This document shows, one piece after another, positions 50,144 to 55,074 of a stretch of DNA of 64,000 nucleotides. Position 1 is the stretch's first letter. Each line of letters begins with the position of its first letter. Source of the stretch: a virus. The stretch covers positions 1 through 64,000 of the IMG/VR virus record IMGVR_UViG_3300035180_000246; one strand, given 5' to 3'. A model generated the notes under the pieces. The model had not been told where the DNA came from, did no database searches, and saw only the letters and a program-made list of their open reading frames with translations. The translations under genes were made by a program, and so were the position numbers.

Positions 50144-50761
50144 ATGGATGCCTTGCCAGTCAATGCGCTTACCTATTTGCCAGTTCTTAAACAAGAGCAA
50201 GTATCATATTGGCATGAACACTATAAGCCCAGCCTATTAGCTGGACAGGTTGAGCAAGAAAGTTGTACCTCACTTAAATCCCCCAAATGTTGGTCACCCA
50301 ATGCAGAGCTTAAGACTGACAGAGAATGGGGAGTAGGCTTGAGCCAATTCACCAAGACACAGTCTTTTGATGCTATTGAGGAGATCAAAGCCAAACATCC
50401 AGAAATTAACTGGGGAAACTGGTCGTTTAATCATCCATATCAAGCTAACTATCAGTTGCGTGGGTTAGTTGTCTATATGCGAGATTTAAGTAGCGAGGTC
50501 AAAGGGGCAGAAACACCGAATGATAATTATCAAATGGCGTTATCCGCCTATAATGGCGGCATTGGTGGGCTACGTAAAGAACGATTAAAGTGTAGCTTAC
50601 TGCTAACCTGCAACCCCAATATATGGTTTGGCAATGTAGAGTTAAGCAGCATTAAAAGCCACAAACCATTCAAGGGATACGGTCAAAGTCCATATGATAT
50701 TAATCGTGGTTACATTGGATTAGTATATAGCCGTGCTGATAAATATGAAGGGCGATATTGA
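50144..50761 (+). CDS. Endolysin, lysozyme/transglycosylase-like
   Basis: A 205-residue SLT-type muramidase or transglycosylase: GQVEQESCTSLKSPKCWSPN has the catalytic Glu (E-S) near residue 41, GVGLSQFTK the following motif, and ALSAYNGGIGGLRKE the AYNAG-like motif. No signal peptide, so release depends on the holin. Coupled to the spanin by a TGATG overlap. Confidence 0.85.
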   Translation: MDALPVNALTYLPVLKQEQVSYWHEHYKPSLLAGQVEQESCTSLKSPKCWSPNAELKTDREWGVGLSQFTKTQSFDAIEEIKAKHPEINWGNWSFNHPYQANYQLRGLVVYMRDLSSEVKGAETPNDNYQMALSAYNGGIGGLRKERLKCSLLLTCNPNIWFGNVELSSIKSHKPFKGYGQSPYDINRGYIGLVYSRADKYEGRY

Positions 50762-51237
50762 TGTGGTTTTACCCAATGATTACAGCAGCGGCTATCAGTT
50801 TCTTTGCTGGATGGTATGTAAATGGATTAAAGCTTAACGCTGAAATTGCACAACTTCATGCTACTTGGAATGAAGCCTACAGCAATCAAGTTAAAGCGAC
50901 GCTAGACAAAGAACACAATATTAACCAGTTAAACACTACGATAGAGGTGAATAATGCTATCAAAGCAAGAGCAATCGATGATGCACATGCTGAAAATATC
51001 AAGCTTGCTGCTGATGTTAAGCGGTTGCAGCACGCAGCCAGTGGCAGTAACCGCACCATGCCCAAAACTAGTGCTGCCTGCCAGTGTACAAGCTCAACCG
51101 CCACAAGCGGATTTTCAGACGAGAGTATCAACATTCTTGTCGAACTGGCAAAAGAAGCTGATGACGCTGCAAGATACGCAAACACCTGCCATGAATGGGC
51201 AGTAGGCGTTACGCAAGAATTAGATAAATCTTACTAA
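50761..51237 (+). CDS. Rz: Inner-membrane spanin (Rz)
   Basis: An N-terminal membrane anchor (YPMITAAAISFFAGWYVNGL) and a long periplasmic helix (HNINQLNTTIEVNNAIKARA, ENIKLAADVKRLQHAA) give the Rz layout; a C-terminal part contains three Cys. Together with the lipoprotein in the other frame it joins inner and outer membrane in the last lysis step. ATG at 50761 overlaps the endolysin stop. Confidence 0.85.
   Translation: MWFYPMITAAAISFFAGWYVNGLKLNAEIAQLHATWNEAYSNQVKATLDKEHNINQLNTTIEVNNAIKARAIDDAHAENIKLAADVKRLQHAASGSNRTMPKTSAACQCTSSTATSGFSDESINILVELAKEADDAARYANTCHEWAVGVTQELDKSY
50981..51205 (+). CDS. Rz1: Outer-membrane spanin lipoprotein (Rz1), embedded in Rz
   Basis: In the +1 frame inside Rz, a 74-residue lipoprotein starts MHMLKISSLLLMLSGC with lipobox L-S-G-C and continues with a Pro-rich part (TAPCPKLVLPASVQAQPPQ), as in Rz1. 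ATG codons at 50954, 50978, 50981 and 50987 are all possible starts. Complete embedding in Rz is the lambda arrangement. Confidence 0.85.
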   Translation: MHMLKISSLLLMLSGCSTQPVAVTAPCPKLVLPASVQAQPPQADFQTRVSTFLSNWQKKLMTLQDTQTPAMNGQ

Positions 51238-51259: not shown

Positions 51260-51796
51260 ATGCTTAAAAAGTATATCGAAGAAGGTTATACATTTACTTA
51301 TGGTATTGCTTCAGATTATAGTGCTGTAGAGATAACCAATATTATAGATAAGCTTAAAATAGCTATGAATAAAATGAATGCAACTCTTACTGTAGATATT
51401 ATCAAAATTAATATAGATACGTATGTTAAGGAGATACTGAGCAATCGTTATCAAGTTTTAGCCATGTATGGAGAATCTGAATTAGTTGCTGCTTTTGTTT
51501 ACACCATTGGTAGCTCTGTAACTTACAATGGTGTAATACCTTGCTTCATATGTAACACTGTTTGGGTGTCTGATAGTGTTGTAGCTCATGATGTATTTGA
51601 CAGACTTAGAAATTTTTTATACAGTATAAACGTGTATTGTATAAAAGTGGTAGATGCTAGAAAAGGTTTTATAGATGTATTTGATAAAACTAGATTAAGG
51701 GAAGGTATGGTAGTAAATGAGTTAAATACATCCGATGTTATGGTATACTTTGATAAAAATGATAAAAATACAATAAATTTTATAGTACGAAGGTAG
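51260..51796 (+). CDS. Unknown protein, possible GNAT-like acyltransferase
   Basis: A 178-residue protein with AAGGG before the ATG. Alternating strands and helices (QVLAMYGESELVAAFVYTIG, then CFICNTVWVSDSVVAHDVFD and RLRNFLYSINVYCIKVVD) resemble the central part of the GNAT acyltransferase fold, but the acetyl-CoA loop (Q/R-x-x-G-x-G/A) is not visible. It stands directly before the ACP gene; if it is an acyltransferase, an acyl-ACP could be its donor. Treat the function as a hypothesis. Confidence 0.5.
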   Translation: MLKKYIEEGYTFTYGIASDYSAVEITNIIDKLKIAMNKMNATLTVDIIKINIDTYVKEILSNRYQVLAMYGESELVAAFVYTIGSSVTYNGVIPCFICNTVWVSDSVVAHDVFDRLRNFLYSINVYCIKVVDARKGFIDVFDKTRLREGMVVNELNTSDVMVYFDKNDKNTINFIVRR

Positions 51797-51801
51797 TAGT
51801 A

Positions 51802-52113
51802 ATGAATAAAGAAATCCCTCTACAAGAATTTTTAAATATCTTAAAAGAAACTATCGAATATGAATCTACAGGTTTAGACTTAGATTTTAGTAACTATTCT
51901 ACTAATTCTAAGTTAAAAGATCTAAATTTAGATAGCTTAGATACTGCATTAACTTTAACTGGTTTAGGTAATTATTTTAATATGCCTAGCGATGCTAATG
52001 TAGAAGGTTACTTTCCAGATGTAAAAGGTCCTAAAGCACATCTAACAGTTATGGATTTAGCTGTTTGGATTAATAAGTATAATAATAATGGAGTAAGTAT
52101 TGATGTATCTTAA
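51802..52113 (+). CDS. Acyl carrier protein
   Basis: A 103-residue acidic ACP-like protein. The phosphopantetheine site is DLNLDSLDTAL with Ser45 in the D-S-L motif; a helix ahead (LQEFLNILKETIEYES) and the helix after it complete the four-helix pattern. It overlaps the ketosynthase gene by 11 nt, so the pair is co-translated. A host phosphopantetheinyl transferase would be needed, since none is seen in this window. Confidence 0.87.
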   Translation: MNKEIPLQEFLNILKETIEYESTGLDLDFSNYSTNSKLKDLNLDSLDTALTLTGLGNYFNMPSDANVEGYFPDVKGPKAHLTVMDLAVWINKYNNNGVSIDVS

Positions 52114-52957
52114 TTCCTATTCTTATACTTTAGATCTTTTAGAATCACGTACTAGTGCATCTCCGCTAACTTTTACAGTTAGTAAACTGGTTTCAGATTT
52201 TAAGTATACACCTGTAGGTGATAAGGTAGGTACTCTACTTGCTGCAGGTAATAGTACTTGGGCAGGCACAGAGACTGTATATCTATCTACTATTAGTAAA
52301 GAAAGTGCTAGAGTATCTTTTATGCAGCAATCGCAAATAGTAGCAGGAAAGTGGGCTAAACAACTAAAAGCTACTGATTGGTTAAGTACAGATGGTTCTG
52401 CTTGTAGTTCTTTAATCATTACTTTAGATTGGGTTAAATATTTATTTGAATCAAGTAAGCTTACAGATGCTATTATTATTAGCGCAGATGATGGTACTAC
52501 TGAACTAGTAAAGCAAGCTTTTACTCAAGCAGGTGTTTTAGGTAAAGCATTTAACGTAGGTTTTGGTGCTAGTATATTTCACGTATCTGCTAAGCAAACT
52601 GCAAATAGTATATGTAAGATATCTAATGTAGTTAATAAATATGCAATTGCTAATACTTTGGTAGATGTGTGTGAAGAAGGGTATACTAGTGTTATTACTA
52701 AAGATTTACCTTTAAACTATGTAAAGATGCATGATACCAATACAGAATCAAATAAGGTAGAATTGGTAGCTGTTAATGTAGCGTATCCAGGATGTGATAC
52801 ATTAAGCTTTAAACAGGAAATAGGACACACTATGGGAAGTTCTACAGGTGTAGAATTATGCCTATGTTTAGATAGGTATCCAAATAGTAATATATTGCAT
52901 TTAAGTGCAGGTATGGGTGGAATGTACGGATCTTTTTTTACGGAGAAACTTAACTAA
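52103..52957 (+). CDS. Beta-ketoacyl-ACP synthase (KAS II-like), compact
   Basis: A 284-residue thiolase-fold condensing enzyme, short for the family (about 410). The active site is complete: Cys101 in DGSACSSLI, His210 in KMHDTNTESNKVEL (HGTGT-like), Lys237 and His242 in SFKQEIGHTMGSSTGVE (Lys to His 5 residues, as in FabF), and a C-terminal AGMGGMYGSFFTEKL like FabF GFGGTNGS. It should form C-C bonds on ACP-bound acyl chains or, as in KAS III-like relatives, transfer an acyl group. ATG at 52103 is preceded by GGAGT; a TTG one codon earlier is possible. Confidence 0.9.
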   Translation: MYLNSYSYTLDLLESRTSASPLTFTVSKLVSDFKYTPVGDKVGTLLAAGNSTWAGTETVYLSTISKESARVSFMQQSQIVAGKWAKQLKATDWLSTDGSACSSLIITLDWVKYLFESSKLTDAIIISADDGTTELVKQAFTQAGVLGKAFNVGFGASIFHVSAKQTANSICKISNVVNKYAIANTLVDVCEEGYTSVITKDLPLNYVKMHDTNTESNKVELVAVNVAYPGCDTLSFKQEIGHTMGSSTGVELCLCLDRYPNSNILHLSAGMGGMYGSFFTEKLN

Positions 52958-55074
52958 TGAAAGATAAATACCTTTCTGCAGATGACAACCTAATTGATGC
53001 AGTTTCTGAAGAACAGTTAGAAAATAATGTTACAGAGACATTTGAGGTTAAGTGGAAGAATCCTCCTAAAGTGTCTAACCTAAAAGGCGACTATATTGCA
53101 GCTTTACCTACACATTCATCACATATTACTAATGTGGGTAATTGGTTAGATTTACTAAGTGGTAAATCTAAAACTAAGTTTGCTAAGAACAGATCTAGCG
53201 TACAACCTAAACTTGCACGTAAACAGGCTGAATGGCGTTATGCTTCATTATCAGAACCTTTTTTAAGTTCTAGTAACATATTTGATGCGCAACCTGTTAC
53301 GTGGGAAGATACTAAGGCTGCTGAACAAAATACTTTAGTACTTAACCACCAATTTAATAACAAAATTAATAAAGTAAGATTTGTTGACGAGTATGTACGT
53401 ACAGCTGTTGATGAAGGTACTATCGTTGTTAAGGTAGGTTGGGAATACGAAGAAGCTGAGCAAATGGTAGAAGAGCCTGTAATGGGTCAGCTTCCTGTAC
53501 AAGATCCTGCTCAAGCTCAACAAATGATTTCTCAAGGTATTCCTCCATTCCAAGAAGCTCAAGTAGGTACTAAACTTGTTAAAAAGATGGTTGCTGTTGA
53601 GAATCATCCTACTACTGAAATTTGTGAATTCGAAAACGTAATCATTGATCCTACATGTAAAGGTGACATTTCAAAAGCGAAGTTTGTCATACATAGATAC
53701 AATGTATCTATGGATGTATTGAAAGCTGATAAGCGTTATAAAAACTTAGACAATATTCAATTTACTGGTGAAGATCCTAGTACTTATCCAGACTACAATG
53801 ATAAAGATGCTGGTAACCTATTTACGTTTAAAGATAAAACTCGCAAGAAAGTAGTAATGTATGAGTATTGGGGATACTGGGATGTTAATAATGATGGTTC
53901 ATTAACTTCTATTTTAGTGTGCTATATTGGTAACACTATTGTTCGTATGGAAGAGAATCCATACCCAGATAAGAAATTGCCTTTTGTAGTAGTTCAATAT
54001 TTACCTGTACGTAAATCTATTTATGGTGAACCTGACAGTGTATTGTTAGAAGATAACCAAGCAATTATTGGAGCTATTACTAGGGGTATGATTGACCTTA
54101 TGGGTAGATCTGCCAATGCTCAACAAGGTATTAGAAAAGATGCTTTAGATGTAATTAATAAGCGTAAATTTGATCTAGGTGAAGATTACCAATTTAGCCC
54201 TAATATCATGAATCCTGAGCAAGCAGTATTTATGCATAGATACCCTGAAATTCCTCAATCAGCTATGATGATGATTCAGTATATGAATAATGAAGCTGAG
54301 TCTATTACAGGCGTTAAAGCTTATAATACAGGCATTGGTGGTCAAGGTTTAGGTAATACAGCTACAGGTGTTAGAGGAGCTTTAGATGCAGCTTCTAAGC
54401 GTGAACTAGGTATTCTTCGCAGATTAGCTGACGGTATTATTCAAATAGGTCGTAAATTCATTTCAATGAATGCTGAATTTTTATCTGATACTGAAGTAGT
54501 TAGAATTACAAATGATGAATTTGTTCCAGTTAAGAGAGATGATTTAGCAGGTAATATTGACTTACGCTTGACAATTAGTACTGCAGAGACAGATAATGAA
54601 AAAGCTCAGGAATTAGCGTTTATGCTACAGACATTAGGTAATAGTGTACCAATGGATGTAACTATGATGATTATGTCTGATATTGCTAAGCTTCGTAAGA
54701 TGCCTGAATTAGCTAAGAGACTTAAAGACTATCAACCCCCTGCTCCAGATCCTATGCAACAACAGATGCAACAATTGCAGTTACAGATGTTACAAGCAGA
54801 GGTTGTAAATGAACAGGCTAAGGGTCAAGATAGACAAGTTGATGCTAAATTGAAATTAGCTAAAGCAGGTGTAGCACAGGCTCAAACTCGTAAGATGAGT
54901 AGTGATGCAGATATGACTGACTTAGATTTTGTAAATAAATCTACAGGTGTTGATCATCAACAGACTCAGGAATTAGCTGCACAAAATCATCAACAAAACA
55001 TTGATGAACATGCAGCAAAAGCATTGCTTGAATTTCATAAAGAAAAAGCAATGCCTAAAGAAGACGCAAAATAA
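52957..55074 (+). CDS. Portal protein (N4 gp59-like)
   Basis: A 705-residue portal that forms the ring through which DNA passes. The first part has a conserved N-terminal region (GDYIAALPTHSSHI, NWLDLLSGKSKTKFAKNR, WRYASLSEPFLSSSNIFDAQ), as in N4-like portals; the middle has a clip/stem part with RGMIDLMGRSANAQQGIRKD. The end is Gln-rich and helical (QQQMQQLQLQMLQAEV). Follows the ketosynthase gene with a 1-nt overlap. Confidence 0.88.
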   Translation: MKDKYLSADDNLIDAVSEEQLENNVTETFEVKWKNPPKVSNLKGDYIAALPTHSSHITNVGNWLDLLSGKSKTKFAKNRSSVQPKLARKQAEWRYASLSEPFLSSSNIFDAQPVTWEDTKAAEQNTLVLNHQFNNKINKVRFVDEYVRTAVDEGTIVVKVGWEYEEAEQMVEEPVMGQLPVQDPAQAQQMISQGIPPFQEAQVGTKLVKKMVAVENHPTTEICEFENVIIDPTCKGDISKAKFVIHRYNVSMDVLKADKRYKNLDNIQFTGEDPSTYPDYNDKDAGNLFTFKDKTRKKVVMYEYWGYWDVNNDGSLTSILVCYIGNTIVRMEENPYPDKKLPFVVVQYLPVRKSIYGEPDSVLLEDNQAIIGAITRGMIDLMGRSANAQQGIRKDALDVINKRKFDLGEDYQFSPNIMNPEQAVFMHRYPEIPQSAMMMIQYMNNEAESITGVKAYNTGIGGQGLGNTATGVRGALDAASKRELGILRRLADGIIQIGRKFISMNAEFLSDTEVVRITNDEFVPVKRDDLAGNIDLRLTISTAETDNEKAQELAFMLQTLGNSVPMDVTMMIMSDIAKLRKMPELAKRLKDYQPPAPDPMQQQMQQLQLQMLQAEVVNEQAKGQDRQVDAKLKLAKAGVAQAQTRKMSSDADMTDLDFVNKSTGVDHQQTQELAAQNHQQNIDEHAAKALLEFHKEKAMPKEDAK

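Follow-up and report, generated by a model that had tools for sequence, protein, structure and literature searches.

ACP and ketosynthase genes in bacteria and phages

In bacteria, an acyl carrier protein (ACP) and a ketosynthase (KAS) constitute the pair that is used for building fatty acid chains, and individual genes of fatty acid metabolism are known from phages. Lipid desaturases of cyanophages have reportedly been described by Roitman et al. (as cited in PMC8224337); compared by description only, these resemble the genes considered here in acting on fatty acyl chains, although they concern another step of acyl metabolism. A lone ACP has been described as an auxiliary metabolic gene in Alteromonas phage R22Y (gp30; PMC11705849), Vibrio R16F (PMC10152775) and Erythrobacter R6L (ORF32; PMC5463345). 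The latter two, which are compared by their papers' descriptions, share a phage-encoded ACP with the phage of the window (the whole 64,000-nucleotide stretch of DNA analysed here), and R22Y shares with it also an affiliation to Schitoviridae and an ACP gene in the structural region. However, the R22Y gene is found after the major head protein (MCP) region rather than before the portal, its partner ORF is different, and no KAS was found in the R22Y genome. The genes fabG-acpP-fabF are present in three Roseobacter prophages (PMC8224337), where, by description, an ACP is likewise followed by a KAS in a region called prophage; as their order and content are those of a normal bacterial fab operon, these genes may be host-derived. 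In MW202545.1, a P22-like phage contig from Manatee Spring, a gene annotated as 3-oxoacyl-ACP synthase belongs to the same phage family as the KAS of the window (26% identity, 1e-14) and has an ACP upstream, but this contig was annotated gene by gene, its ACP is labelled hypothetical and the pair is undescribed. The main text of a 2023 survey of N4-like viruses makes no mention of acyl, fatty acid or ketoacyl (PMC10654107), and among the journal papers accessible without subscription our search found none that reports a conserved, catalytically intact pair of carrier and condensing enzyme as a phage module.

Of the cellular systems, FabF and FabB (KAS II and I) with AcpP provide the main comparison, and in the acpP-fabF arrangement of E. 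coli the ACP gene is directly before the KAS gene, as in the phage pair. The phage KAS appears to have the same fold as E. coli FabF/FabB and it retains the equivalents of C163, H303, K335 and H340. It differs from FabF in its length (284 to about 375 aa versus about 412 aa) and in having Met for the gatekeeper Phe400 and AGMG[NG] for GFGG, and it branches separately from the sampled cellular FabF/FabB (aLRT 87). In contrast to bacterial FAS-II, the phage ACP and KAS genes overlap and they have no fabD or fabG neighbours.

The late operon of the window phage

The virus record is 73,858 bases long (73.9 kb), of which the window covers positions 1-64000. Judged by its genes, the phage carrying it is Schitoviridae-like (N4-like). 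Its portal is 52% identical to those of Schitoviridae phages (Klebsiella phage Pylas and Salmonella phages FSL SP-058/076), its major head protein is a related one (phrog_1357, 5.5e-126) and an ORF of 3300 aa, comparable in size to the virion RNA polymerase (vRNAP), is present at the right end (record positions about 63846-73748). The late operon on the plus strand reads endolysin-like gene, Rz/Rz1 pair, ORF1, ACP, KAS and portal, and its features are as follows.

50758..51237, plus strand: Rz-like inner spanin, upstream neighbour (phrog_2466 1.1e-8, phrog_456 3.7e-6)
50954-51205: Rz1-like lipoprotein frame, nested within the spanin gene above
51260..51796, plus strand: ORF1, 178 aa, an open frame, first gene of an apparent three-gene unit
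51802..52113, plus strand: ACP, 103 aa, with a D-S-L motif
51934-51936, plus strand: codon of Ser45 in the D-S-L motif of the ACP
52103..52957, plus strand: FabF-type beta-ketoacyl-ACP synthase (KAS), 284 aa, shortened
52403..52405, plus strand: codon of catalytic Cys101 of the KAS (FabF C163)
52730..52732, plus strand: codon of catalytic His210 (FabF H303)
52811..52813, plus strand: codon of Lys237 (FabF K335)
52826..52828, plus strand: codon of catalytic His242 (FabF H340)
52957..55074, plus strand: portal protein, syntenic marker directly 3' of the module (PF23899 7.4e-147, phrog_1216 2.5e-234)

An earlier sequence-only reading of this DNA had placed the three genes between the spanins and the portal and had described an ACP gene overlapping a KAS gene by 11 nt. 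Both descriptions hold, as the Rz/Rz1 set precedes the trio, the portal follows it, the frames are open and the first 11 nt of the KAS gene lie within the ACP gene. A GGAG is present at 52090-52093, 9 nt 5' of the KAS ATG, from which the length of 284 aa is counted; an alternative TTG start is possible at 52100. No second KAS or ACP was found elsewhere in the window phage.

The same reading had taken ORF1 for a possible acyltransferase, a suggestion that found no support. No family in Pfam, PHROGs or NCBIfam matches the protein significantly, and its AF2 model is unusable (pLDDT 36). By eye, the end halves of ORF1 resemble partner ORFs of related modules; hhalign gave no support for a relationship to the 147-aa protein that follows the KAS in P22-like phages, the 100-aa ORF that precedes the portal in contigs of the L177 type or the 167-aa ORF that follows the ACP in R22Y. 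With no family match, a failed model and negative hhalign results, a GNAT acyltransferase was dropped as a candidate. Relatives of ORF1 were detected only in the nearest relatives of the window phage, L002/L003 (75% identity), and a search for further ones gave none beyond the same four contigs.

Identity and conservation of the ACP and KAS

Taken singly, the two proteins of the window fall below the Pfam cut-offs, and their assignment thus rests on the family and not on single sequences. The KAS alone scores 16.0 bits against PF02801 (cut-off 20.8) and 9e-5 against the NCBIfam KAS, whereas the KAS of L006, L002 and L181 reach the Pfam cut-off. The ACP alone does not match PF00550 and is below the cut-off for the NCBIfam acyl_carrier (E=0.009), and no single library would call it. 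However, profiles that exclude the window lineage find both genes among 1006 six-frame segments, the KAS with a profile of 39 other phage KAS (E=1.2e-38) and the ACP with a profile of 21 other phage ACPs (E=2e-7). A profile of 30 phage KAS matches solved FabF structures (5.9e-31 for 5sxo), and the window KAS matches PHROG 35856, a family of unknown function (2.9e-21). The phage ACP profile matches E. coli AcpP (1.4e-7) and ACPs in the PDB (4.2e-7), nearly all of the listed matches being ACPs. The window ACP is a small acidic protein (15 acidic and 7 basic residues), and its D44-S45 is invariant in 20 phage ACPs.

The proposal that the KAS is a thiolase-fold enzyme with an intact active site is supported by structure prediction and alignment. 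The AF2 model of the window KAS (pLDDT 69, pTM 0.74, with low confidence for residues 50-98) has E. coli FabF (1kas) as its top Foldseek match (E=9.5e-10, prob 1.00, TMq 0.68), and the predicted structure is of the thiolase fold. Cys101, His210, Lys237 and His242 align with C163, H303, K335 and H340 of E. coli FabF, and the complete Cys-His-Lys-His set is retained in 40 of 40 aligned representatives as well as in each of the 162 distinct phage KAS with a length of 260 aa or more, so that none of these homologues has lost it. A FabF-like C-terminal loop, which had also been claimed, is not present: the loop reads AGMGGMYGS where FabF has GFGGTN, and the gatekeeper Phe400 of FabF is replaced by Met in 40 of 40 phage representatives. 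The GFGGTN loop with its Phe gatekeeper is a trait of FabF/FabB and not of all KAS. Due to the absence of these characters, the phage KAS is regarded here as a FabF-related variant and not as FabF, and as the change is common to all phage KAS, their acyl pocket or chemistry may differ.

Compared with FabF, the window KAS is short by about 130 residues. The sequence-only reading had noted a deficit of about 120 residues and had thought of a specialised or decoy enzyme; the shortening stands, but the latter interpretation is weakened, as relatives at the same locus before the portal are 335-360 residues long with the same catalytic set, and as the gene appears to be under purifying selection. 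The shortening is thus best viewed as a local derived state, with the short form derived from longer, intact relatives. In comparison with the nearest relative L002, dN/dS is 0.16 for the KAS, 0.19 for the ACP, 0.23 for ORF1 and 0.08 for the MCP. The short form may serve as a minimal KAS.

Distribution of the ACP-KAS pair

KAS relatives are encoded by at least 561 viral contigs, confirmed among 599 pattern-matched contigs; as contig collections are redundant, the counts given here refer to distinct proteins where stated. Of 108 distinct KAS loci, 104 have an ACP-like gene with DS[LM] immediately 5' of the KAS, and the two usually overlap by 4 nt; the exceptions include contig-edge or truncated cases and also L078, where the ACP is one gene away. 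By these sequence criteria hundreds of uncultured phages carry ACP-KAS with a complete set of catalytic residues, and it is therefore probable that many phages build or remodel an acyl chain while infecting their hosts.

Among 50,697 phage records, the KAS of this module was found only in MW202545.1, and the other matches resemble ordinary FabF in unannotated fragments. The latter, which include records labelled as 'Listeria', 'Enterococcus', 'Staphylococcus' and Pseudomonas Y4 phages, were rejected as probable host contamination. The INPHARED entries OR846837, OR849884, PQ520154, OQ572406 and similar ones are likewise unannotated 'phage' fragments with an ordinary bacterial FabF, probably from hosts, and such fragments served only as cellular references. 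A search of 84,980 prokaryote species genomes identified a phage-type KAS in one contig (L154; JAGYJQ010000016.1), and as the search patterns were of the phage type, this result shows a viral clade and not that bacteria lack KAS. The contig is binned in a Balneolaceae MAG, carries phage-type genes and looks like a P22-like phage with the module; this could point to a host or result from faulty binning.

In a quick tree, all phage KAS were on one side of the branch that separates them from FabF/FabB (aLRT 87, with 7 cellular rows), and a recent capture from a bacterium is unsupported by this branching. The window KAS formed a long branch near the KAS of the diiron type described below (aLRT 83), and its place inside the clade is unsure.

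Genomic contexts and partner genes

Late operons of Schitoviridae-like, P22-like and T7-like phages contain the module, which in other phages is found at a replication-type locus, and the partner gene beside it is not constant between these phages. The Schitoviridae-like contexts are those of the window, L002/L003, L173, L176, L177-179, L181-183 and L192, and in these related contigs the pair is at the same site, just before the portal. The order is ACP-KAS-100 aa-portal in L173, L176 (where the ACP end is cut off) and L177-179, and ACP-DUF2269 membrane protein-KAS-portal in L181-183 and L192. As this order before the portal is maintained even though L177 and the window are only 56% identical in the portal and 30% in the KAS, the pair is inferred to be an old and positionally stable part of the Schitoviridae-like lineage, in agreement with the earlier suggestion that the genes are established there. 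Two of the partner genes are listed below.

L181, 4564-5007, and L192, 1179-1637: DUF2269 integral membrane protein between the ACP and the KAS (PF10027, best 1e-13)
L147, 4168-4632: FabA/FabZ-type dehydratase directly after ACP-KAS (PF07977, 1.2e-29), the only one found among an initial set of loci

In P22-like phages, the order ACP-KAS-147 aa protein is found between a gp10-like gene and large genes, including a transglycosylase, which are putative ejection proteins. A conserved protein of 143-211 aa is present directly after the KAS in P22-like loci (e.g., L006, 10941-11381; 107 ORFs matched), with an invariant G-N and an F-x-A-x-N-x-D stretch and with no match to a known family. In phages with SNF2 helicase, DUF2800 and Enc34 ssDNA-binding genes the order is helicase-ACP-KAS, and the pair is away from the virion genes. 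The idea that the module is tied to ejection proteins everywhere was therefore rejected, as it is true for the P22-like phages but not for the SNF2/DUF2800 phages or the window.

A diiron protein, desaturase- or ferritin-like, is tied to the pair in L076, L077, L078, L079, L081 and L175. The order ACP-KAS-diiron protein is observed in phages with a T7-like terminase and tail fibre (L081) and in others with collagen-like tail genes (L077), whereas in L078 the diiron gene is between the ACP and the KAS and in L175 two diiron genes are in tandem. Seven of the eight contigs retrieved with the diiron query are ACP-KAS carriers, and the eighth (L169) is a short fragment. The ligands follow the pattern E / ExxRH / E / ExxRH (L076-L082, L175), and E45, E85xxH88, E129 and E159xxH162 are invariant in five proteins. 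The protein matches the acyl-ACP desaturase 1za0 weakly and is below the cut-off for FA_desaturase_2 (PF03405; E=0.003, 16.9 bits, cut-off 22.7), and as Rubrerythrin is at least as good a match in L175, this partner is designated only as diiron and desaturase-like. The neighbourhood in L175 also contains radical-SAM-like and PP-loop-like genes on the other strand.

Possible function of the module

On balance, the pair probably represents a phage-dedicated condensing unit of the type II fatty acid synthase kind, which would rely on AcpS, FabD and FabG of the host. The support from sequence consists of the gene identities, the translational overlap, the conserved catalytic set and ACP serine, the syntenic inheritance, the purifying selection and the FAS-type partners in relatives. 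The strict retention of Cys-His-Lys-His argues for catalysis, and the FabZ-type gene and the diiron protein with its acyl-ACP-desaturase-like ligand spacing point to acyl-ACP chemistry in the relatives. The roles given to the host enzymes follow established knowledge of FAS-II. Weighing against this explanation are the altered loop and gatekeeper, the short window KAS with its partly low-confidence model, the inconstant partner gene and a search that identified no reductase, transacylase or phosphopantetheinyl transferase of the phage. Host AcpS would place 4'-phosphopantetheine on Ser45 of the phage ACP, and either malonyl would be loaded by host FabD or an acyl chain would be supplied from host acyl-ACP. 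The KAS would accept the acyl chain on Cys101, and His210, His242 and Lys237 would drive the decarboxylative condensation with malonyl on the phage ACP, after which host FabG, FabZ and FabI could complete the cycle, with at least one relative bringing its own FabZ-type gene. The variable partner (the desaturase-like diiron protein, the DUF2269 membrane protein or small ORFs such as ORF1) may then modify or deliver the acyl chain, which in the window phage would occur late in infection. As the carrier is made together with the enzyme, a private substrate line is suggested rather than a boost of the host FAS.

A narrower version of this proposal, which overlaps with it, is that the KAS supplies the host membrane with unsaturated or otherwise changed fatty acids and thereby aids late infection or lysis. 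FabB/FabF constitute the control point for chain length and unsaturation in E. coli. The desaturase-like diiron partner, the DUF2269 membrane protein encoded within the L181 and L192 operons and the position of the window module after the lysis genes are consistent with such a role. However, a dedicated ACP is unnecessary for feeding the general lipid pool and the diiron family match is below the Pfam cut-offs, and in this specific form the explanation seems rather unlikely, although it is still worth considering.

Somewhat more doubtful is a non-elongating acyl-transfer enzyme, which would take up a finished chain from host acyl-ACP on Cys101 and hand it on, with no C-C bond made, either to the phage ACP or to a target in the virion or membrane. 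The loop and gatekeeper changed in all members, the pair just before putative ejection proteins in P22-like phages, the two cultured Schitoviridae in which an ACP lacking an adjacent KAS is just before a large internal-virion-type gene, and R22Y, which lacks any KAS, would fit this explanation. Lys335 and both active-site histidines are needed for decarboxylation and condensation. Their retention in all 162 proteins, however, speaks against mere transfer, as do the FabZ-type partner of L147, which is sensible only downstream of condensation, and the SNF2/DUF2800 phages, whose pair is not beside virion genes.

The divergence of phage ACPs from AcpP, the shortened window KAS and the late-operon position could also indicate a decoy or takeover, by which the two proteins draw off AcpS, malonyl-ACP or host FAS partners and slow host lipid synthesis or redirect carbon with no product of their own. 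We consider this decidedly improbable, since a decoy would have no need of a complete four-residue catalytic set in phages as divergent as these, and the matched ACP-KAS pair with FabZ-type or diiron proteins argues for a product. Lastly, a catalytically idle leftover or a structural re-use of the fold, to which the shortening and the weak single-sequence Pfam scores might point, can be virtually dismissed in view of the dN/dS of 0.16 and the invariant catalytic set.

In regard to the target of a condensing unit, virion-protein acylation would suit the synteny with ejection proteins in P22-like phages and the placement of the lone ACPs in R22Y and PT11-V19, whereas a lipid role would suit the replication-region copies and the membrane-protein partner. 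A more speculative proposal, which we advance with considerable doubt, is that hundreds of uncultured phages, belonging to at least four unrelated types, share a virus-specific acyl-chain factory, in which FabZ-type, diiron or membrane partners can be exchanged around an ACP-KAS core. The product of this factory would be coupled to a phage-specific target, for instance ejection proteins or an envelope-modifying lipid, or would be delivered together with it. If true, this would constitute a previously unknown class of viral acyl modification. The question of which acyl product makes phages so often bring their own carrier and condensing enzyme is now testable, and any of the possible answers (acylated virion proteins, altered membranes at lysis, a small signal or inhibitor) would add something new to phage biology.

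ACP genes of cultured Schitoviridae

In two cultured Alteromonas Schitoviridae, L155 (PP212876.1, 23774-24554) and L156 (OP751378.1, 3754-4504), a DSL ACP overlaps a conserved 167-aa ORF. These two genes belong to the structural region, where they follow the MCP and precede a large internal-virion-type gene, and no KAS is adjacent to them. In the cultured Alteromonas phages R22Y and PT11-V19, the lone ACP is just before an internal-virion-type gene. A pattern search of viral contigs for ORFs related to the 167-aa one of R22Y gave no match. The L155 and L156 phages provide a cultivable system for studying phage ACPs.
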